Positions 19,193 to 27,920 of a DNA stretch of 64,000 nucleotides are shown piece by piece. The position numbers and the translations under genes were made by a program. Positions within the stretch are counted from its first letter, which is position 1, and the number at the start of each line of letters is the position of its first letter. The notes beneath the pieces are model-generated. The model did not search any database. It had not been told where the DNA came from and was given only the letters and a program-made list of their open reading frames with translations. The stretch lies in NCBI RefSeq assembly GCF_000025705.1, contig NC_013959.1:1107063-1171062 (forward strand), read 5' to 3'. Source of the stretch: Sideroxydans lithotrophicus ES-1 (GTDB taxonomy: Bacteria > Pseudomonadota > Gammaproteobacteria > Burkholderiales > Gallionellaceae).

Positions 19193-20464
19193 CTATTTGA
19201 TCCGGTAGATACCCAGTGCCTTGAGTACGTATTTTTCATAGACCGGCTCTGAGGTGCCGGTCTTCATCTTGCGCATGAAGTATTTCTCGAACGCGATCTT
19301 GGCCAGATGCACCCATTTGCCTTTCTTGGCCCAGGTGACATTGCGGGGCGGGATCTGCGGCAGCGCGACAAAAGCCACGCCGGTGTCTCCCATGTCGGCC
19401 AGGCATATGGTGTTCCATGTGCCGGTGGTCACGGCAGCGCGGCCATCGAGTTCATCCTGTATGTTGTGCACGATGGCGGAGACCATCGATTCGATCATGT
19501 AGCCTGTCTTCGGTGTTCCGACCGGCACCGGCGTCGGTTCCACCGGCGGTATCGCGATGCACACTCCTGCCGCGAAGATGTTGTGGTATTTCGGGCTGCG
19601 CTGATGCTGGTCCACGATCACCAAGCCGGCCGGGTTGCATAGACCGGCGACATTGGTGACCGCAGGCACGCCGCGAAATGGCGGCAGCATCATCGAATAG
19701 TTGAAATGCAGCACATGGTTGCGGACCTTCTCGCCGTAAAGGTCGTATTCCTCGACATGCATCTTGTCTGCTTCTACTTTGACGGTCTTGGCATTGGTGA
19801 TCCACTTGATGTGGCGATGGCGCAATTCCGATTCGAGCAGTCCCTTCGAATCGCCGACACCGCCCAGCCCGAGGTGGCCGATATAGGGTTCGGGGCTGAC
19901 GTAGGTGATCGGTACCTTGTGGCGCAGTTTGCGGCGGCGCAGGTCGGTATCCAGCGCCATTGCATACTCGTATGCAGGGCCGAAGCAGGATGCGCCCTGA
20001 AACGCGCCAACCACCACATGGCCCGGATCCTTGAGGAATTCTTCGTATGCGTCGTATGCCTCGCACGCGTGGTCGACGGTGCAGACGGACTGCGTGTACC
20101 CGCCATTCGGTCCGGAGCCATCGACCAGTTCAAAGGCCAGGCGCGGTCCGGTGGTGATCACCAGATAGTCGTAATCGAGGATTGTTCCATTGGCCAGATG
20201 GATGCGGCTGGTTTCGGCATCGATCTTTTCAGCGGATGATGCGATGAGGGCTATGCCTTTCTTTTCCAGGCACGGGCGCAGATTGAAGGTGGTGTCTTCG
20301 CGTTTGCGCCAGCCGAGCGCGACCCAGGGGTTGGAAGGAACGAACTGGAAGGTTTCGGATGCATTGATGACCGTGATCCGGTGCTGCCTGCCCAAAGCTT
20401 CGCGCAATTCATACGCTGCGGGTGTTCCGGCGGTACCGGCACCGAGGATGACAATGTGTGCCAT
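19193..20464 (-). CDS. sqr: Sulfide:quinone oxidoreductase
   Basis: A 423-residue FAD flavoprotein that oxidises sulfide and reduces membrane quinone. The N-terminal dinucleotide fold (HIVILGAGTAGTPAAYEL) and a second NAD(P)H-like fold are present. Cysteines at residues 128, 160 and 354 (in SVCTVD, GASCFG and ICLADMGDTG) match the three redox cysteines of characterised type I SQRs such as that of Acidithiobacillus. The C-terminus carries amphipathic helices for monotopic membrane binding. A TTGGAGGAAG site precedes the start. It is the last gene of the minus-strand array that begins with cydP, suggesting that electrons from sulfide go through quinol to cytochrome bd. It is convergent with tpm, with no obvious terminator between them. 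Confidence 0.9.
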   Translation of the reverse strand: MAHIVILGAGTAGTPAAYELREALGRQHRITVINASETFQFVPSNPWVALGWRKREDTTFNLRPCLEKKGIALIASSAEKIDAETSRIHLANGTILDYDYLVITTGPRLAFELVDGSGPNGGYTQSVCTVDHACEAYDAYEEFLKDPGHVVVGAFQGASCFGPAYEYAMALDTDLRRRKLRHKVPITYVSPEPYIGHLGLGGVGDSKGLLESELRHRHIKWITNAKTVKVEADKMHVEEYDLYGEKVRNHVLHFNYSMMLPPFRGVPAVTNVAGLCNPAGLVIVDQHQRSPKYHNIFAAGVCIAIPPVEPTPVPVGTPKTGYMIESMVSAIVHNIQDELDGRAAVTTGTWNTICLADMGDTGVAFVALPQIPPRNVTWAKKGKWVHLAKIAFEKYFMRKMKTGTSEPVYEKYVLKALGIYRIK

Positions 20465-20614
20465 GTTCTTCCTCCAAGGATTCAGGCGCAGGCTCTTCCT
20501 TTGCAGATCGCCAGAGCTGCCCGGGTGTTGCGGGATAGGCAGTAGGTATCAGCTGCCATAGTCGGATAGGTCTTTCTGCAACTGAAAGGTCTCCAACTAC
20601 GGCAGGGCCGGGAT

Positions 20615-20779
20615 TCAGTGATGCGATTTCGCCATCAACTTGAGTATCTTCAGATTGATGACGAGAAAGCGGACACCCTGCCATACGAGCGATGTGCGCA
20701 TGTAGCGGGTGAATCCGGTCGGGGCCGGAGGGTAGTAAGCCTGCTGGTAAGGCTCTCTGTTGGTGATCTTGTTTGCCAT
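20615..20779 (-). CDS. 54-residue membrane-associated protein between two SQR genes
   Basis: A small frame with AGGAGC seven bases before its ATG. The N-terminal half is polar with a PYQQAYYPPAPTG segment. The C-terminal half (WQGVRFLVINLKILKLMAKSHH) can form an amphipathic or membrane-lying helix. It starts 28 bases after the stop of the first SQR homologue and precedes the second by about 150 bases, so it is an operon member. I know of no named family. A membrane anchor, a quinone-site accessory or an assembly factor for the neighbouring monotopic flavoproteins are possibilities. Confidence 0.7.
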   Translation of the reverse strand: MANKITNREPYQQAYYPPAPTGFTRYMRTSLVWQGVRFLVINLKILKLMAKSHH

Positions 20780-20807
20780 GTCTTGCTCCTGAAATCGTTT
20801 TGAATAA

Positions 20808-22265
20808 TTAATCCGGGATGATCGACCAGCCCGGCTTCAGCTTTGCCTGGTAGATGAATGCGTGATGCAGCAGATATTTCATCCAGTGGCCGGCCAAGCC
20901 GATCTCGCCGAAGGTCAGGTCGATGTCGCGACCATAGTCCGGGTATTTCTCGAAGTCCGGCACGACCGGGAAGACCGTCATCGTGGCTGCGGTACCCTTG
21001 AAGAAGTCTGCTCCGGTAGAGGCGACGCACGCGGCGCCCATCTCCGCCATGGAAGCCGTGTGGGTGGGTTTTTCCGCACCGTTGAGCATGTCGCGGATGC
21101 TCATGGCGACTGCCTTGGCCATGGCCGCGGATGGCATCCCGGTTCTGGGGGCCGTCGGATTGATGGGGGTCCCGTTCGCGCTTTGCATCGGCTTGCTGAT
21201 CATGTGCGGTGGCGCGAAGGCGATGCCGACGGCGAAGATATTGCGGTAAGCCGGTGTCTGGTAGGTCTTGGGCCAGTCGCGGGCCGACCATTCCAGATAG
21301 GGGCGAGCAGTGTAATCCGCGTCCACCTTCATGAAACCATTGGGGGCAAACAGCTGCGCGGATATGTCTGCTCCAGCCTTGTCGTAAGCCTTCAGCCCGA
21401 CCCCGGCGAATGGCGGGATCAGCATGGAGAAATCGAACTCCAGTTCATGGTAGCTGCCATCCAGCGTCTCGTAATGGATCTTGCCGGCTTCGACCCTGGT
21501 CACGTGCGCACGGGTGATCCATTCGATGTTGCGCTCGACCATCAGCGATTCGGCGAAAGTCTTGCCGTTGGTGACGTAGCCGCCGCGCTTGATATGCACG
21601 CCGCCCATGCCGAAGTCGCCCAGCTCGTATTCGTTGCTGAGCCAGACGATGCGGGCCTTGTCGCGCACGCCGGCTTCGCGCAGCATATGGTCCACGTTGT
21701 AGATGTATTCGAATGCGGCGCCCTGGCAGGTGCACATCCCGTGCCCGGTGCCGATGACGATGGTGCGGCGCTCGCCTGCGCGCAGGGCGTCGATGACGTG
21801 CTGCAGTTTCTCATTGGCTTCCAGTGCGTGGCTGGAAGTACAAACGGATACCGTGTGGCCGTGCTCGGGGCCCAGTCCCGGAGTGGCGGCAAAATTCAGT
21901 TTCGGTCCTGTGGCATTCACCAGATAGTCGTAGGTGATGTTCTCCTGCACACCGGCCTTGGCGGGATGGGTGTACTCGACGGTCACGAACGGGGAAGGAT
22001 TTTCGGCATTGCCCTCAGGATGGATCGCGAGTGCCTTGGCCTGGCGGAAGTTCACCCGGGTCTTGCTGTACACCTCGGTCAGGTCGAAGGTGACTTGCTC
22101 TTCCTTCATCTGTCCGACACCCACCCAGATATTGGAGGGTATCCAGTTCCACTTTGCATTGGGCGAGACAACTACGACCTCGTGCTGTTTGCCTACCCAT
22201 TTGTTCAGATACCTGGCGACAGTGTGACCTGCAATGCCTGCGCCCAGAATTACGATACGTGCCAT
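20808..22265 (-). CDS. SQR-like FAD-dependent oxidoreductase (second paralogue)
   Basis: A 485-residue flavoprotein of the sulfide:quinone oxidoreductase superfamily, longer than and distinct from the downstream SQR. It has the FAD fold (RIVILGAGIAGHTVARYL), an ATG motif (YDYLVNATGPKL), and cysteines in the expected redox positions: C142 (SVCTSS), C178 and C180 (HGMCTCQG) and C413 (GAACVAST). The double cysteine at the second position, plus insertions near residues 85-105 and 320-370, set it apart and suggest another SQR subtype or a polysulfide- or persulfide-acting enzyme. GAGGAAAAAG precedes the start. It begins 54 bases after ybgE with no hairpin between, so cotranscription with the cyd genes is likely. 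Confidence 0.85.
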   Translation of the reverse strand: MARIVILGAGIAGHTVARYLNKWVGKQHEVVVVSPNAKWNWIPSNIWVGVGQMKEEQVTFDLTEVYSKTRVNFRQAKALAIHPEGNAENPSPFVTVEYTHPAKAGVQENITYDYLVNATGPKLNFAATPGLGPEHGHTVSVCTSSHALEANEKLQHVIDALRAGERRTIVIGTGHGMCTCQGAAFEYIYNVDHMLREAGVRDKARIVWLSNEYELGDFGMGGVHIKRGGYVTNGKTFAESLMVERNIEWITRAHVTRVEAGKIHYETLDGSYHELEFDFSMLIPPFAGVGLKAYDKAGADISAQLFAPNGFMKVDADYTARPYLEWSARDWPKTYQTPAYRNIFAVGIAFAPPHMISKPMQSANGTPINPTAPRTGMPSAAMAKAVAMSIRDMLNGAEKPTHTASMAEMGAACVASTGADFFKGTAATMTVFPVVPDFEKYPDYGRDIDLTFGEIGLAGHWMKYLLHHAFIYQAKLKPGWSIIPD

Positions 22266-22319
22266 TTCTTTTTCCTCAAATTATTGATTCAGTCTGATTC
22301 GATTTCGTGTGCCGCTTTG

Positions 22320-22613
22320 TCAGCTGTTAAGCAAGAGCCATAGCCCAAGACCCATCAGTGCCCATGCCACCCAGGGCCCGAACAGCAAACGCCACAGCCT
22401 GGTTTCAGGGATGAAACCCACGCCGTGAATGAACCCGGCACAGATGCCCAGCATCGTCAGCGACAGCATGCCGTGGCTGGTATGGCCGAGTGCCCTCGGA
22501 TAGGTGAGGATGATCCCGGTCAGGGCCAGCGCCAGCAGCAGCGACAGCATGCGCGGCAATGCTGCATAGATGCCGCCATGCGCGGCTGGTACTGTTTCCT
22601 GGCGCACGGTCAT
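22320..22613 (-). CDS. ybgE: YbgE-type cyd operon membrane protein
   Basis: A 97-residue protein with three hydrophobic helices and the YbgE-like central motif GICAGFIHGVGFIPETRLWRLLFGPWVAW. YbgE homologues follow cydABX in many proteobacteria, but their role in cytochrome bd function is still unclear. The ATG at 22613 overlaps the cydX stop as ATGA, indicating coupled translation. Codons upstream in this frame overlap cydX and are not part of the gene. Confidence 0.88.
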   Translation of the reverse strand: MTVRQETVPAAHGGIYAALPRMLSLLLALALTGIILTYPRALGHTSHGMLSLTMLGICAGFIHGVGFIPETRLWRLLFGPWVAWALMGLGLWLLLNS

Positions 22614-22729
22614 TCCTTGTCGCTTGATTCTTCCTTGGTGACGCAAGCTTGCGCGTCGCACATCATGGTGTTGACGATGGCCAGCAGAATGGCCATCGAG
22701 ACTCCCAGTATCCAGGCGAAATACCACAT
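22610..22729 (-). CDS. cydX: Cytochrome bd oxidase small subunit CydX
   Basis: A 39-residue single-helix protein beginning MWYFAWILGVSMAI, the hallmark of CydX, with a charged C-terminal tail (KEESSDKE). CydX sits beside CydA and stabilises the b595/d hemes of cytochrome bd. AAAGGAGATATG precedes its ATG, 15 bases after cydB, and its TGA overlaps the ybgE start. Two cysteines near residues 24 and 29 (MMCDAQAC) are uncommon for a CydX and could form a periplasmic disulfide. Confidence 0.92.
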   Translation of the reverse strand: MWYFAWILGVSMAILLAIVNTMMCDAQACVTKEESSDKE

Positions 22730-22744
22730 GTCATATCTCCTTTA

Positions 22745-23884
22745 TCAGTATGCTGACTTGTCGTTGGCGTTGATGAATTCGGCAGTGACCTTGCCCGACA
22801 TCTTCTTGTAGGCCCAGCTGGTGTAGACGACGATGAGCGGCAGGAAGATCACTGTCGCACCCAGCATCAGGGTCAGCGTCAGTTGCGAGGAGACGCTATC
22901 CCACACCGTCAGGCTGGAACGCGGGTCGGAACTGGACGGCATGATGAACGGGAACAGCGATACCCCGGCGGTGCCGATGATGCCCAGCATGCCCAACGAA
23001 GAGCTGACGAAGGCGGTCAGCGGTTTGTTGAACCAGGCAGCTGCGATGGCCAGCAACCCGCCGGCGAAGCCGATGGCGGGAACCAGCTTGGCAGCCGGAT
23101 ACAGGGTGTAGTTATGCAACCATGCACCGGCCTGGGTGACCACGGTCTTGTCCAGCGGGTTGGGCAAGGCATTGCCGTCGATCACGCTGGTGATCACATA
23201 ACCCTGGATGCTGTTCGCCAGCCAGATGCCGGCAAGTGCGAAGGTGACCAGTGTGAGTGCGCCGAACACCAGCGAGGCGGTGCGCACGCGGCGATACACA
23301 TCCCCTTCGGTGCGGATCATCAGGTAGTTCGCACCATGCGCGGTGATCATCGCCGTGCTGACGACACCGGTGAGCAGCGCGAACGGGTTGAGCAGGGCCC
23401 AGAAGGTGCCGGTGTAGAACGAACGCAGGTCATTGTCGAAGTGGAACGGCACGCCTTGCAGCAGGTTGCCGAACGCCACGCCGAAGATCAGCGGCGGGAC
23501 GAAGCCGCCCACGAACAAGCCCCAGTCCCAGGTCTTACGCCAGGTCGGGTTCTCGATCTTGCTGCGGTAATCGAAGCCTACCGGGCGGAAGAACAGCGCC
23601 CACAGCACGGCGAGCATGGCCCAGTAGAAGCCGGAGAAGGCAGTGGCGTAGACCAGCGGCCAGGCGGCGAAGATGGCACCGCCGGCGGTGATGAACCACA
23701 CCTGGTTGCCGTCCCAGTGCGGGCCGACGGTGTTGATCATGATGCGGCGTTCGGTGTCGTTCTTGCCGGCAAAGGGCAGCAGGGTGCCGACGCCCATGTC
23801 ATGTCCGTCCATGATGGCGAAGCCGAGCAGCAATGCACCGACCAGCAGCCACCAGATGATTTTTAACGTTTCATAATCGAGCAT
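22745..23884 (-). CDS. cydB: Cytochrome bd ubiquinol oxidase subunit II
   Basis: A 379-residue integral membrane protein with about nine helices. It begins with the typical YETLKIIWWLLVGALLLGFAIMDG region and conserves GPHWDGNQVWFITAGGAIFAAWP, as in E. coli CydB. It pairs with CydA to form the quinol-oxidising, oxygen-reducing complex in the cytoplasmic membrane. Its length matches the E. coli bd-I protein. It lies 14 bases after cydA, with a GGAGATAACC site. Confidence 0.96.
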   Translation of the reverse strand: MLDYETLKIIWWLLVGALLLGFAIMDGHDMGVGTLLPFAGKNDTERRIMINTVGPHWDGNQVWFITAGGAIFAAWPLVYATAFSGFYWAMLAVLWALFFRPVGFDYRSKIENPTWRKTWDWGLFVGGFVPPLIFGVAFGNLLQGVPFHFDNDLRSFYTGTFWALLNPFALLTGVVSTAMITAHGANYLMIRTEGDVYRRVRTASLVFGALTLVTFALAGIWLANSIQGYVITSVIDGNALPNPLDKTVVTQAGAWLHNYTLYPAAKLVPAIGFAGGLLAIAAAWFNKPLTAFVSSSLGMLGIIGTAGVSLFPFIMPSSSDPRSSLTVWDSVSSQLTLTLMLGATVIFLPLIVVYTSWAYKKMSGKVTAEFINANDKSAY

Positions 23885-23898
23885 GGTTATCTCCTAGT

Positions 23899-25464
23899 TC
23901 AGATAGTGGCGGTTGCGGTTTGTTCGGAGTGGTAGCGTCCGGTACCCAGGCTGCCCGGTCCCTTGCGCGCGAACTTCACCATCAGGTACATCTCGATGAC
24001 GAGCAGTCCGGTGTAGAACACGACGAAGCCGGTGAGCGATCCGTACAGGCTGCCTACCGACAGGCTGGAAGCCGACAGATGGGTAGGCAGCACGCCGTAG
24101 ATGGTCCACGGCTGGCGACCGTATTCAGCCACGAACCAGCCCAGTTCGGCGGCGATCCACGGCATCGGGATGAACAGCATCGCCCAGCGCAGCAGCCAGC
24201 GCTGCTTGAGGAAGGTGCCGCGCACCGTGTGGTACAGCGACAGGCCGAGCAGCAGGGCGAAGGCAAAGCCCAGCGCGACCATCACGCGGAAAGACCAGAA
24301 CAGCGGTGCGACGCGCGGCACCGTGCTGTCGACAGCCTGCTGGATCATTTCCGGTGTCGCCTTGGTGACGTCCTCGGTGTATTTCTTCAGCAGCAGGCCG
24401 AACCCCAGATCCTTCTTGTGGTCTTCGAACACCTGTTTCGCTGCGACATCGTTCTTGTTCTTGCGCAGTTCTTCCATCGCGTTCACTGCGAGCAGGCCGG
24501 ACTCGATGCGTTTGCGGTTCTTCTCCTTGATCTCGGCGATGCCCGGGATCTCCTTGCTGAAGCTGCGCGTGCCGATGATGCCCATCACATAGGGGATCTG
24601 TACTTCAAAGTCGTTGCGCTGTTCCTTCTCGTTGGGGATGGCGAACACGTTGAACGCGGCCGGTGCCGGTTCGGTATGCCACATCGCTTCCATGGCCGCC
24701 AGTTTTGTCTGTTGCGATTCGGAGATGGTGTAGCCGGATTCGTCGCCGAGCACGATCACCGACAGCGCGGAGGCGAAGCCGAAGGCGGCGGCGATGCGGA
24801 ACGAGCGGCGTGCGAATTCGATATCGCGTCCCTTGAGCAGGTACCAGGATGAGATGCCGAGCACGAACAGCGAAGCGGTGACATAGCCGGCGGAGACGGT
24901 ATGCACGAACTTGGCCTGTGCGGTGGGGTTGAAGATCACCTGCCAGAAGTCGGTGAGCTCCATGCGCATGGTGGTGTAGGAGAACTCGGCGCCCACCGGG
25001 TCCTGCATCCAGCCGTTGGCGATCAGGATCCACAGTGCCGACAGGTTGGAACCGATCGCGGTGAGTATGGTGACCATGAAATGCTGGCCCTTGGTCAGGC
25101 GGTCCCAGCCGAAGAAGAACAGGCCGATGAAGGTGGATTCGAGGAAGAACGCCATGAGCCCCTCGATCGCCAGCGGTGCTCCGAAGATGTCACCGACATA
25201 ATGCGAATAGTAGGCCCAGTTGGTGCCGAACTGGAACTCCATGGTCAACCCGGTGGTCACACCGAGCGCAAAGTTGATCCCGAACAGTTTGCCCCAGAAT
25301 CGGGTCATGTCTTTGTAGATCTGTTGTCCGGTCACCAGGTATGAGCCTTCCATGATGACCAGCAGGAAGGTCATACCCAGGGTGAGAGGAACGAACAGGA
25401 AGTGATACAGCGCGGTGACCGCAAATTGCAACCTCGAAAGGTCGACCAGTTCAGTGCTAATCAT
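23899..25464 (-). CDS. cydA: Cytochrome bd ubiquinol oxidase subunit I
   Basis: A 521-residue heme subunit. The heme b595/d ligand histidine is in ALYHFLFVPLTLG near residue 21, a heme b558 histidine is in FVHTVSAGYVT near 187, and the conserved methionine region follows. The quinol-binding Q-loop is of the long, E. coli-like form (insert rich in K, E and N at roughly residues 290-350). The enzyme oxidises quinol with high oxygen affinity without pumping protons, and it resists sulfide, cyanide and NO. That fits an operon that continues with two SQR-type genes and a genome making NO by NirS. GGAGGATG precedes the start, 9 bases after cydP. Confidence 0.97.
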   Translation of the reverse strand: MISTELVDLSRLQFAVTALYHFLFVPLTLGMTFLLVIMEGSYLVTGQQIYKDMTRFWGKLFGINFALGVTTGLTMEFQFGTNWAYYSHYVGDIFGAPLAIEGLMAFFLESTFIGLFFFGWDRLTKGQHFMVTILTAIGSNLSALWILIANGWMQDPVGAEFSYTTMRMELTDFWQVIFNPTAQAKFVHTVSAGYVTASLFVLGISSWYLLKGRDIEFARRSFRIAAAFGFASALSVIVLGDESGYTISESQQTKLAAMEAMWHTEPAPAAFNVFAIPNEKEQRNDFEVQIPYVMGIIGTRSFSKEIPGIAEIKEKNRKRIESGLLAVNAMEELRKNKNDVAAKQVFEDHKKDLGFGLLLKKYTEDVTKATPEMIQQAVDSTVPRVAPLFWSFRVMVALGFAFALLLGLSLYHTVRGTFLKQRWLLRWAMLFIPMPWIAAELGWFVAEYGRQPWTIYGVLPTHLSASSLSVGSLYGSLTGFVVFYTGLLVIEMYLMVKFARKGPGSLGTGRYHSEQTATATI

Positions 25465-25473
25465 GCATCCTCC

Positions 25474-25653
25474 TCATGGTGTCGTAGTGTTGTGAGTCTG
25501 GGTTCGCAGAACCGCGCTGCTGACCTGTTCCGGTGTCAGCGTGCTTTCGCCGCCGCTGAAGAAGATCCACCAGATGGCCAGCAATCCGGCGAGCTTGATT
25601 GCGGTCACGATGGCGATCTTTCTGGCAAGCGGTTGCTCGTGAAAAAGTTTCAT
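25474..25653 (-). CDS. cydP: CydP-like small cytochrome oxidase subunit
   Basis: A 59-residue protein: a basic N-terminus (KLFHEQPLARKIAIVTAIK), one helix (LAGLLAIWWIFF), then a periplasmic tail with the TPEQVSSAVL motif seen in the small CydP family found before cydAB. Its stop is 9 bases from the cydA ATG. It is the first gene of the array, about 25 bases downstream of the predicted start of the sigma-54 promoter. Its function in cytochrome bd assembly or stability is assumed from location. Confidence 0.82.
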   Translation of the reverse strand: MKLFHEQPLARKIAIVTAIKLAGLLAIWWIFFSGGESTLTPEQVSSAVLRTQTHNTTTP

Positions 25654-25688
25654 CTGCGCTCAAAGGTTAGTTTCCCCGCTGACCCTAA

Positions 25689-25704
25689 TGCAGTATCTGT
25701 GCCA
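25689..25704 (-). promoter_or_regulatory. Sigma-54 (RpoN) promoter of the cyd-sqr array
   Basis: On the minus strand the bases TGGCAC-AGATAC-TGCA match the -24/-12 consensus TGGCAC-N5-TTGCW, with the essential GG and GC doublets at the right spacing; one T of the -12 element is replaced by C. Transcription would start near 25678 and leave about 25 bases before the cydP ATG. The divergent neighbour encodes a sigma-54 activator, which makes the assignment much more likely. Confidence 0.78.
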
Positions 25705-25809
25705 TCGACCGGCACATGTTTTTAATGCCTTGTTAATGAATGGTTTTAATTCGTTTGAATATGGATTCTGGTGGGCAGCGATAATTGCGGGCATGTCAAA
25801 AATGGCAGC

Positions 25810-25826
25810 TCATTCTGCTAGAATGA
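25810..25826. promoter_or_regulatory. 17-bp inverted repeat, candidate activator site
   Basis: TCATTCT-GCT-AGAATGA has perfect 7-bp arms. It lies about 110-135 bases upstream of the predicted sigma-54 promoter for cydP, a normal distance for an enhancer-like activator site, and 35 bases before the activator gene's own ATG. Binding there could both activate the cyd-sqr array and restrain the activator gene. A wider ATGTCA/TGACAT pair (25793-25798 and 25836-25841) flanks it. Confidence 0.6.
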
Positions 25827-25861
25827 ATAAATAACTGACATATTTGTTAAGGTAATGATTC

Positions 25862-27172
25862 ATGAGCCATAGTTCTATTTCCGAGCTGATGTCCTATCTC
25901 GATACGCTGGCGGAACCACGCATCGTGCTCGATCGGAGCTACAACATCATAGGCGCCAATCGCGCCTATCTCAGTTATTACCATGTGGGCGATTTGCCCA
26001 TCGCCGGACGGCATTGCTATGAAGTGTCCCACCGCTATAAGCGTCCCTGCGACGAGGAGGGCGAGTCCTGTCCGCTCAAGTCCAGCCTGCAGAGCGGACA
26101 ACCGCATCGGGTGTTGCACATCCACCACACGGTGCGCGGGGACGAGCATGTGGACGTGGAGTTGACGCCGATACGCAACGCGGAAGGAGAGATCGAGTAT
26201 TTCGTCGAGATGATCCATACCGTGCGTGCCGGCAGCGCTTTGCCCGAAGGGGAGTTGGTAGGACGTTCCGCAGCGTTCAACCGGATGCTGGAACAGGTGA
26301 CGAGAGTGGCGCCGTCGCAAGCGGACGTGTTGCTGCTGGGCGAGTCCGGCACGGGCAAGGAGCTGGTGGCCCACGCGGTGCACGACGCCAGCAAGCGTGC
26401 GACGGGGCCATTCGTCGCGGTCGATTGTTCCAGCCTGCCCGAGAACCTGTTCGAGAGCGAACTGTTCGGCTATGAGAAGGGTGCATTCAGTGGCGCGAAC
26501 CAGCGCAAGCAGGGACTGGTCGAAGCCGCCAGTGGCGGTACGCTGTTCCTCGACGAGGTGGGCGATATCCCGCTGGGTTTGCAGGTGAAACTATTGCGGC
26601 TGCTGGAAACCGGCACCTATCGCCGGGTGGGGGGCGTCGAGCCTTTGCGCTCGGATTTTCGCCTGGTTGCGGCTACCCATCGCGACCTCAAGAAAATGAT
26701 CGCCGAGGGAAGTTTCCGCCGCGATCTGTATTACCGCATCAGCACTTTCCCGATCCTGCTGCCGTCCCTGAGCGAACGGATGGAGGACTTGCCGTTGCTG
26801 ATGGAGGCCTTGCTGAAGCGCATCAGTACCGATCATGCGATGTCTATCCATCCCGCCACGCTGCTGTGCCTGTCCAAATACGATTTTCCCGGGAACATCC
26901 GCGAATTGCGCAACCTGATCGAGCGTGCGACGCTGCTGGCAGACGGCGATGTCCTGCTGCCCGAACATTTTCCCGATCCTTGCGAAGAGAAGCAGGATTC
27001 ATTGCACTCTGGTCAGAGCTTCAGCCAGGTCATGACGCTGGAGGAGATGGAAAAGAGTTATCTGGAATGGCAGGTTCGGAATTCAGGGCTGGGCCGCAGG
27101 GAATTGGCAGAGCGGCTGGGGATAGGCGAACGGACCCTGTTCAGAAAATTGGGCAAGCTGACCAAGATATGA
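25862..27172 (+). CDS. Sigma-54-dependent activator with a cysteine-rich PAS sensor
   Basis: A 436-residue enhancer-binding protein. An N-terminal PAS-like domain (residues 1-120) contains [23 protein letters not shown], with cysteines at 52, 63 and 70, suited to binding a metal or heme or to redox or persulfide sensing. The AAA+ domain spans about 130-370 with Walker A (GESGTGKE) at 160-167 and Walker B (GGTLFLDE) at 225-232. The sigma-54 contact loop reads GAFSGA (207-212) instead of the usual GAFTGA. The C-terminal Fis-type helix-turn-helix ([20 protein letters not shown]) ends the protein. It is divergent from the cyd-sqr array and probably controls it. The signal may be sulfide, NO, oxygen or redox state; only the cysteines hint at it. 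Confidence 0.9.
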
Positions 27173-27179
27173 GTTATTT

Positions 27180-27920
27180 ATGGAATTTGAAAATATGCCT
27201 CTTGCAACTGCAATGAAGATATCCGAACCAGGCTATGACCGGGTTTGCGATGAACGGGATATTTACGAGCGTCTGCTGCCTCTCGAAGATGCGGACATCC
27301 TCGAGCTCGGCTGCGGCAAGGCCGAAAAGACCTTTGCCATCGCAGAACGCGGAAAGGCAAACAGGATCGTTGCGCTGGAAGTCGACGAGATCCAGCACGC
27401 AAAGAACCTGCAGCGCAAAACTCCTTCCAATGTGAGTTTTCAACTTGGCGGAGCGCAGGCGATCCCGGTCGGCGATCGCTCCTTCGATATCGTGTTGATG
27501 TTCAAGTCGCTGCATCATGTACCGCTGGCGCTGATGGATACGGCGATGGCCGAGATACATCGAGTGCTGAAACCGGGCGGGATGGCGTACATTTCCGAGC
27601 CGGTCTTTGCCGGGGAATTCAATGAGATCCTCAGACTCTTTCATGACGAGCAGGCCGTGCGGGCAGCCGCTTTCGCCGCTGTTGAGCGTGCAGTTGCTGC
27701 TGGCAGCTTCGAGCTGGCGAGTGAGACCTTCTTCGATACGCCTGTCCATTTTGAAAACTTTGAACAGTTCGAAGAGCAGATATTGAAGGTGACCCACACA
27801 CAGCACCGATTGGCACCGGAGCTCTACCAACAGGTAAGGCAGAAATTCATGCATCACATGAAAACTGATGGAGCGAGCTTCAGGACACCGATACGGGTAG
27901 ACTTGTTGCGCAAGGTCTGA
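27180..27920 (+). CDS. Class I SAM-dependent methyltransferase
   Basis: A 246-residue protein with the Rossmann-like methyltransferase motif I (ILELGCGKAEKTFAIA, residues 40-55), an acidic motif II (ALEVDE) and post-motifs (SFDIVLMFKSLHHVP and LKPGGMAYISEP). This is the UbiE/Methyltransf_11 type. The substrate is not evident. It starts 7 bases after the sigma-54 activator stop, probably in the same transcript, so a link to the sulfide or bd-oxidase response is possible. Thiol methylation would be one idea, but it is unsupported by any motif. Confidence 0.83.
   Translation: MEFENMPLATAMKISEPGYDRVCDERDIYERLLPLEDADILELGCGKAEKTFAIAERGKANRIVALEVDEIQHAKNLQRKTPSNVSFQLGGAQAIPVGDRSFDIVLMFKSLHHVPLALMDTAMAEIHRVLKPGGMAYISEPVFAGEFNEILRLFHDEQAVRAAAFAAVERAVAAGSFELASETFFDTPVHFENFEQFEEQILKVTHTQHRLAPELYQQVRQKFMHHMKTDGASFRTPIRVDLLRKV

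Follow-up and report, generated by a model that had tools for sequence, protein, structure and literature searches.

We find that the cytochrome bd genes of Sideroxydans lithotrophicus ES-1 stand in one array with genes for sulfide:quinone oxidoreductases (SQRs), divergent from a gene for a FisR-family sigma-54 activator (REG). The array is probably a respiratory operon under this activator, with sulfane sulfur as the signal. The individual parts are known; the variant lies in placing cytochrome bd under FisR-type control and in the same array as an SQR unit. The link between the regulator and cyd is a stronger and wider finding than the exact array, which is real but uncommon.

Gene content, layout and conservation of the array

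Gene calls and HMM searches in the window (the whole 64-kb stretch of DNA that was analysed, at 1107063-1171062 of a single 3,003,656-base contig) reproduced the order, strand and coordinates of the first-pass annotation, which had read a one-strand series of cydP, cydA, cydB, cydX, ybgE, an SQR gene, a 54-codon gene and a further SQR gene (Table 1). CydA, CydB and CydX were all matched by Pfam and NCBIfam models and thus identify a cytochrome bd oxidase (Pfam E-values of 2.5e-176, 2.5e-105 and 1.3e-14, with 3.6e-23 for YbgE). CydP and CydX passed their NCBIfam cut-offs (40.1 bits against 29.6 and 39.2 against 31.6), YbgE stayed below its own (42.6 against 89.55), and both SQRs fell below the nearest curated NCBIfam SQR model (99.1 and 52.8 against 525). 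The genes are tightly packed, with 9 bp between cydP and cydA, 14 bp between cydA and cydB, 15 bp between cydB and cydX and an overlap of cydX and ybgE. The SQR gene said to follow ybgE within 54 bases does so at exactly 54 bp (SQR2), followed by 28 bp to the 54-aa gene and 150 bp to SQR1. The genome returned one cydA match and one rpoN match. Directly behind REG, on the same strand, is a SAM-methyltransferase-like gene (window 27180-27920).

Table 1. Features of the array and its regulator, in window coordinates.
Feature	Position	Strand	Basis or remark
REG, FisR-family sigma-54 activator	25862..27172	+	PAS_4, AAA+, Fis-type HTH; Cys52, Cys63, Cys70
Imperfect palindrome, TGACATATTTGTTA on +	25836..25849	.	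candidate second activator site, by eye; one half-site departs from TGNCA
Palindrome TGNCA-N4-TGNCA, TGTCAAAAATGGCA on +	25794..25807	.	candidate activator site
-24/-12 sigma-54 promoter of cydP, TGGCACAGATACTGCA	25689..25704	-	recurs in homologous gaps
cydP	25474..25653	-	NCBIfam NF045611
cydA	23899..25464	-	Pfam and NCBIfam
cydB	22745..23884	-	Pfam and NCBIfam
cydX	22610..22729	-	Pfam and NCBIfam
ybgE	22320..22613	-	Pfam match; start overlaps cydX stop; start picked by reading
SQR2, divergent sulfide:quinone oxidoreductase, 485 aa	20808..22265	-	alignment; C142, C180, C413
54-aa protein gene, 3' of SQR2	20615..20779	-	no Pfam or NCBIfam match; predicted helix 31-53
Stem-loop in the gap between the 54-aa gene and SQR1	20550..20610	-	no U-run; one genome copy found
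SQR1, close to A. ferrooxidans SQR, 423 aa	19193..20464	-	C128, C160, C354

According to passages of an earlier description, ES-1 has sox and dsr clusters, grows on thiosulfate and possesses both cbb3 and bd oxidases (PMC3770913). A search of the ES-1 genome for persulfide dioxygenase (PDO) found none, which is weak evidence of absence since the query was an 81-aa fragment.

Sequence scans of the operon strand from ybgE to SQR1 found neither a sigma-70-like nor a terminator-like site, in keeping with the earlier remark that no terminator is visible between ybgE and the SQR genes, though a hairpin lacking a U-run precedes SQR1 (-46 kcal/mol, z -2.15). Within cydP and cydB there are terminator-like matches; the whole window has 8, against 4.8 in shuffles. 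A genome search found no second copy of the hairpin, and its interpretation as a genome repeat was dropped. The gap that holds it is about 100 bp shorter in the relative G416 (about 54 bp, against 150 bp in the window). Because this strong hairpin precedes SQR1, its membership in one transcript with cyd is less sure than that of SQR2.

At E 1e-60 or better, SQR2 homologues occur in 45 of the 158 genomes sampled from the family, in 3 of 300 from the order and in 7 of 369 from the class, ES-1 itself being counted each time. In eight of the 45 Gallionellaceae cydA and cydB precede SQR2 on one contig (many contigs being short), and in five of those eight the regulator is divergent (ES-1, G416, G408, G386 and G311). 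The combination of regulator, cyd and SQR2 on one contig thus occurs in 5 of the 45, in keeping with the view of the combination as uncommon. Further genomes contain pieces of it: in G190, G343, G344 and G345 the contig with SQR2 breaks off within the cyd region, the regulator standing with cydP or cydA on another contig, G384 has only a CydX-like match, and G348 has a cydA-like gene after the small gene. In an uncultured betaproteobacterium (L074) the regulator and cyd adjoin SQR2 and its small gene, but the order differs. The expected conservation in relatives was only partly borne out: the array with its regulator occurs in 5 of 45, and SQR1 lies inside it only in ES-1 and G416 (2 of 5).

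The regulator and its link to cyd

REG had been proposed as a divergent sigma-54 activator with a cysteine-rich PAS domain, and the gene is indeed of the PAS-AAA+ type and carries the three N-terminal cysteines. Its AAA+ domain matches Sigma54_activat above the cut-off (PF00158, E 1.8e-68), which makes it a sigma-54 activator, the N-terminal domain matches PAS in Pfam, and the HTH_8 match is weak (17.4 bits against a cut-off of 22). We looked for full-length homologues in 158 genomes of the family, 399 of the order and 369 of the class (cut-offs of 1e-110, 1e-110 and 1e-95) and obtained matches in 29, 53 and 64 genomes, respectively; places listed without a locus were included. After addition of three plasmid records and removal of duplicates sharing their first 240 bases, 169 distinct places were obtained; the samples overlap and lean towards near relatives, so counts over these places are not counts of independent events. 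Cys52, Cys63 and Cys70 are kept in all 169 homologues, down to 39% identity. Cys189 of the AAA+ domain is kept in 167, Cys336 in 28 and Cys374 in 17.

A Cupriavidus metallidurans homologue, 52.5% identical to REG, lies divergent from PDO-like and SQR-like genes, a layout also reported for FisR of A. baumannii. In this C. metallidurans protein, which is presumably FisR itself, the cysteines are at 53, 64 and 71 when the nearest Met is taken as the start. Accordingly, the REG cysteines at 52, 63 and 70 correspond to FisR 53 and 64, the third FisR cysteine presumably being position 71, and REG carries the FisR cysteines. In C. pinatubonensis FisR, a Cys53-Cys64 tetrasulfide is described in passages of PMC9495516, and those of PMC9774590 speak of three conserved cysteines. 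The FisR of Acinetobacter baumannii, unlike REG, is without these cysteines and yet controls pdo-sqr in response to sulfide, to go by portions of PMC7315123; the cysteines therefore do not settle the signal. Sulfide or persulfide, named among the possible signals in the first-pass annotation, is nonetheless the best candidate, because REG has the FisR cysteines and its homologues adjoin sqr and pdo.

What lies beside the homologues was labelled from genes within about 3 kb (flanks are sometimes shorter), the names PDO, CcoG, NifX, TehA, molybdopterin oxidoreductase and metallo-beta-lactamase being given by reading the proteins and not by HMMs. In 41 of the 169 places cydA/B is divergent from the regulator (CydA/B identity 61-100%), and cyd is nearby in another arrangement in eight more. 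An SQR of at least 40% identity lies within 3 kb in 31 places, divergently in 18; the label sqr was given to 41 places (five with pdo), ten of which rest on 23-29% matches that may be other flavoenzymes. pdo is near the regulator in seven places and stands alone in two. Ferredoxin- or CcoG-like genes occur in 23, NifX-like and molybdopterin-oxidoreductase-like genes in four each, TehA-like genes in three and a metallo-beta-lactamase-like gene alone in two, and 41 places carry none of the markers, some of them on short flanks. The signal of REG may be a broader redox one, since 41 of 169 places are without markers and 23 lie by ferredoxin- or CcoG-like genes. In the regulator tree, cyd- and sqr-linked members fall in several clades, some weakly supported. 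As distant a homologue as that of Pseudoalteromonas xiamenensis (43% identical) is divergent to annotated CydP, cydB, cydX and YbgE family genes. ES-1 itself has a REG paralogue outside the window (genome positions 791034-792314, listed as L144 and L319; 54% identical), accompanied by two palindromes and a -24/-12 site; the genes divergent from it are ferredoxin-like and NifX-like.

The -24/-12 elements reported before cydP are present at 25704-25689. Taken alone, such an element is at chance level (2 matches in 64 kb, 1.25 expected), and TGNCA-N4-TGNCA has 6 matches in the window with 1.97 expected. A chance -24/-12 match was nevertheless rejected because homologous gaps repeat the element. 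We scored the gaps beside the homologues, leaving out one of the 169 places for its length or for N. Among the 41 gaps between regulator and cyd, the palindrome is found in 28 (0.8 in shuffles, none in coding stretches of the same loci), a -24/-12 score of at least 9 of 11 in 29 (shuffles 1.67, coding 0) and both together in 25, counts that are partly description because some of these gaps are where the motif first came to notice. Of the 41, 16 are without the palindrome, without a good promoter or without either, and 15 of these 16 come from homologues below 59% identity. The sqr- or pdo-labelled gaps, which played no part in motif discovery, contain the palindrome in 19 of 43 (shuffles 0.27, coding 0), and the remaining groups do so in 23 of 43 (coding 4) and 17 of 41 (coding 0). 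Coding controls of the groups linked to other genes gave 4 palindromes in 43 and 1 promoter match in 41.

Within the Gallionellaceae, every gap in which cydP or cydA is divergent from the regulator has both elements (10/10). Three cydP-first operons of cyd and SQR2 that have no adjacent regulator (G435, G417 and G415) have neither element within 450 bp (3/3), and a genome search returned no regulator match in any of them, G435 being only 69% complete. At the cydA start of L062 neither palindrome nor promoter was found. L074 combines regulator and cyd and contains the palindrome, but no stretch there reaches the promoter cut-off; L066, in which cydA comes behind the small gene and so offers no separate gap to score, was left out of this negative control. 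The proposal made at the outset, that the divergent gene puts cyd under sigma-54 control, is thus supported by a shared promoter and palindrome that are missing in the three operons without the regulator. How far would this control extend in ES-1? Among 72 of its 73 TGGCAC-N6-TGC sites examined, a palindrome some 100 bp upstream is confined to the cyd operon and the paralogous regulator (one further site has it at 27 bp), which suggests a regulon of one operon, although the strict pattern could miss weaker sites.

Two SQRs and a small conserved gene

The two SQRs of the array differ in their affinities. SQR1 matches the SQR of A. ferrooxidans at E 3.1e-174 and has C128, C160 and C354, where the cysteines of the reference, according to PDB titles, are 128, 160 and 356; it thus belongs to type I, the type that we take A. 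ferrooxidans SQR to represent. The match of SQR2 to A. aeolicus SQR has an E-value of 7.4e-39, and C142, C180 and C413 of SQR2 align to the three A. ferrooxidans cysteines. The model of one SQR2 relative (L093), partly of low confidence, also has A. ferrooxidans SQR as its best fold match. Of the six SQR types, SQR2 may belong to type IV (SqrD), that of C. tepidum CT0117, which its occurrence in Chromatiaceae would fit.

Downstream of SQR2, the 54-aa gene has no Pfam or NCBIfam match and is nonetheless found 3' of SQR2 in 79 of 80 named loci, at an estimated 4-278 bp (median 32); in the exception, L051, the sequence ends 168 bases after SQR2. Gallionellaceae, Zetaproteobacteria and Chromatiaceae are all represented among the named loci; since these are the best 80 of 584 SQR2 relatives, distant ones are under-sampled. 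Four SQR2-like genes of 45-47% identity extend the picture: three have a short matching ORF directly 3' (E 4e-5 to 2e-4), and in the fourth the match is not significant (E 0.03). The 54-aa protein is therefore probably an unnamed, conserved partner of SQR2 across several bacterial groups. Folded alone it is predicted to form a helix at 31-53, and because this is a lone helix of modest hydrophobic moment (0.27-0.39), a membrane role is a guess. When the L093 SQR2 was folded as a read-through into its small gene, confidence was low past residue 410 (blocks of 26-62), and the model says nothing on docking.

Proposed working and relation to known systems

Sulfane sulfur formed from sulfide would, as we picture it, modify the three N-terminal cysteines of REG. 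From the TGNCA-N4-TGNCA palindrome, which lies some 100 bp ahead of the -24 element, REG would activate sigma-54 RNA polymerase at the cydP promoter. Given the gene order, a single transcript could yield cytochrome bd together with SQR2 and its small partner; for SQR1 this is less sure. Judging by the enzyme families, the SQRs would pass electrons from sulfide to quinone, and the bd oxidase, being sulfide-tolerant, would reoxidise the quinol with O2 when other oxidases would be inhibited.

Other explanations have to be weighed against this one. REG might sense low oxygen or the general redox state and not sulfane sulfur, with cyd as a microaerobic target and the SQR genes riding along. Such a role would suit the homologues, the ES-1 paralogue included, that lie by ferredoxin-, CcoG- or NifX-like genes and in many cases share the palindrome, and the three cysteines could bind a redox cofactor; we nevertheless hold it to be unlikely, given the 31 of 169 places near an SQR of at least 40% identity, the 7 near pdo and the match of the REG cysteines to FisR positions. 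Sigma-54 sensors of nitric oxide do exist, NorR being one. Cytochrome bd is reported to confer NO resistance in E. coli, and it could be made here for NO tolerance; the N-terminal domain of REG matches PAS, however, and NO as its signal seems very improbable.

As for the SQR genes, they might be transcribed separately, their place behind ybgE being incidental. In the greater part of the 45 Gallionellaceae, SQR2 and the small gene were found with no cyd beside them (flanks are often cut by contig ends), and 54 bp precede SQR2 and 150 bp, with the hairpin, precede SQR1. Against this, neither gap holds a promoter- or terminator-like site on the operon strand, and cyd and SQR2 adjoin in more than one arrangement, L074 and L062 included, which leaves separate transcription doubtful in our view.

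Beyond the preferred reading of a sulfane-sulfur-responsive operon, we tentatively put forward a broader proposal, to which we give somewhat less than an even chance: in Beta- and Gammaproteobacteria, FisR-family regulators would be a widespread, unrecognised class of switches by which reactive sulfur controls cytochrome bd, with cyd, sqr and pdo swapped repeatedly as targets, and the ES-1 operon would join both halves, SQR2 having a new small, perhaps membrane-associated, subunit. The analysis offers a concrete and widely distributed candidate regulator and DNA site for sulfide-raised bd oxidase, and a conserved small protein as the probable partner of an SQR family.

In the passages covered of the literature on FisR, bd and sulfide, on cydAB and RpoN, and on sqr and cydAB (PMC7315123, PMC8148161, PMC9774590, PMC4109375), FisR control of cyd was not found, which is no proof of its being unpublished; those on cydAB with RpoN or an enhancer binding protein refer to an Fnr-like regulator. 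A search joining SQR, cytochrome bd, operon and PAS domain found none.

The closest known system is FisR-pdo-sqr of Cupriavidus and Acinetobacter, likewise a divergent sigma-54 activator of sulfide oxidation with SQR. The Cupriavidus homologue has the same three-cysteine N-terminus as REG; REG itself is divergent to cydP, and the SQRs come further along the cydP strand. In contrast, the ES-1 promoter stands before cytochrome bd first and then the SQRs, in an array without PDO. Sulfide-raised bd oxidase is reported, in parts of PMC7315123, for A. baumannii (where FisR controls pdo-sqr and sulfide raises cydAB transcripts), E. coli and M. tuberculosis, and there too bd is expected to share the quinone pool with SQR; those parts state neither FisR control of cydAB nor an operon shared with sqr. 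Finally, SQR types I and IV (SqrD), which form one clade according to portions of PMC4584964, keep the SQR cysteines as do the SQRs of the array, whereas SQR2 differs from them in having 3' of it a 54-aa protein that matches no Pfam or NCBIfam model.
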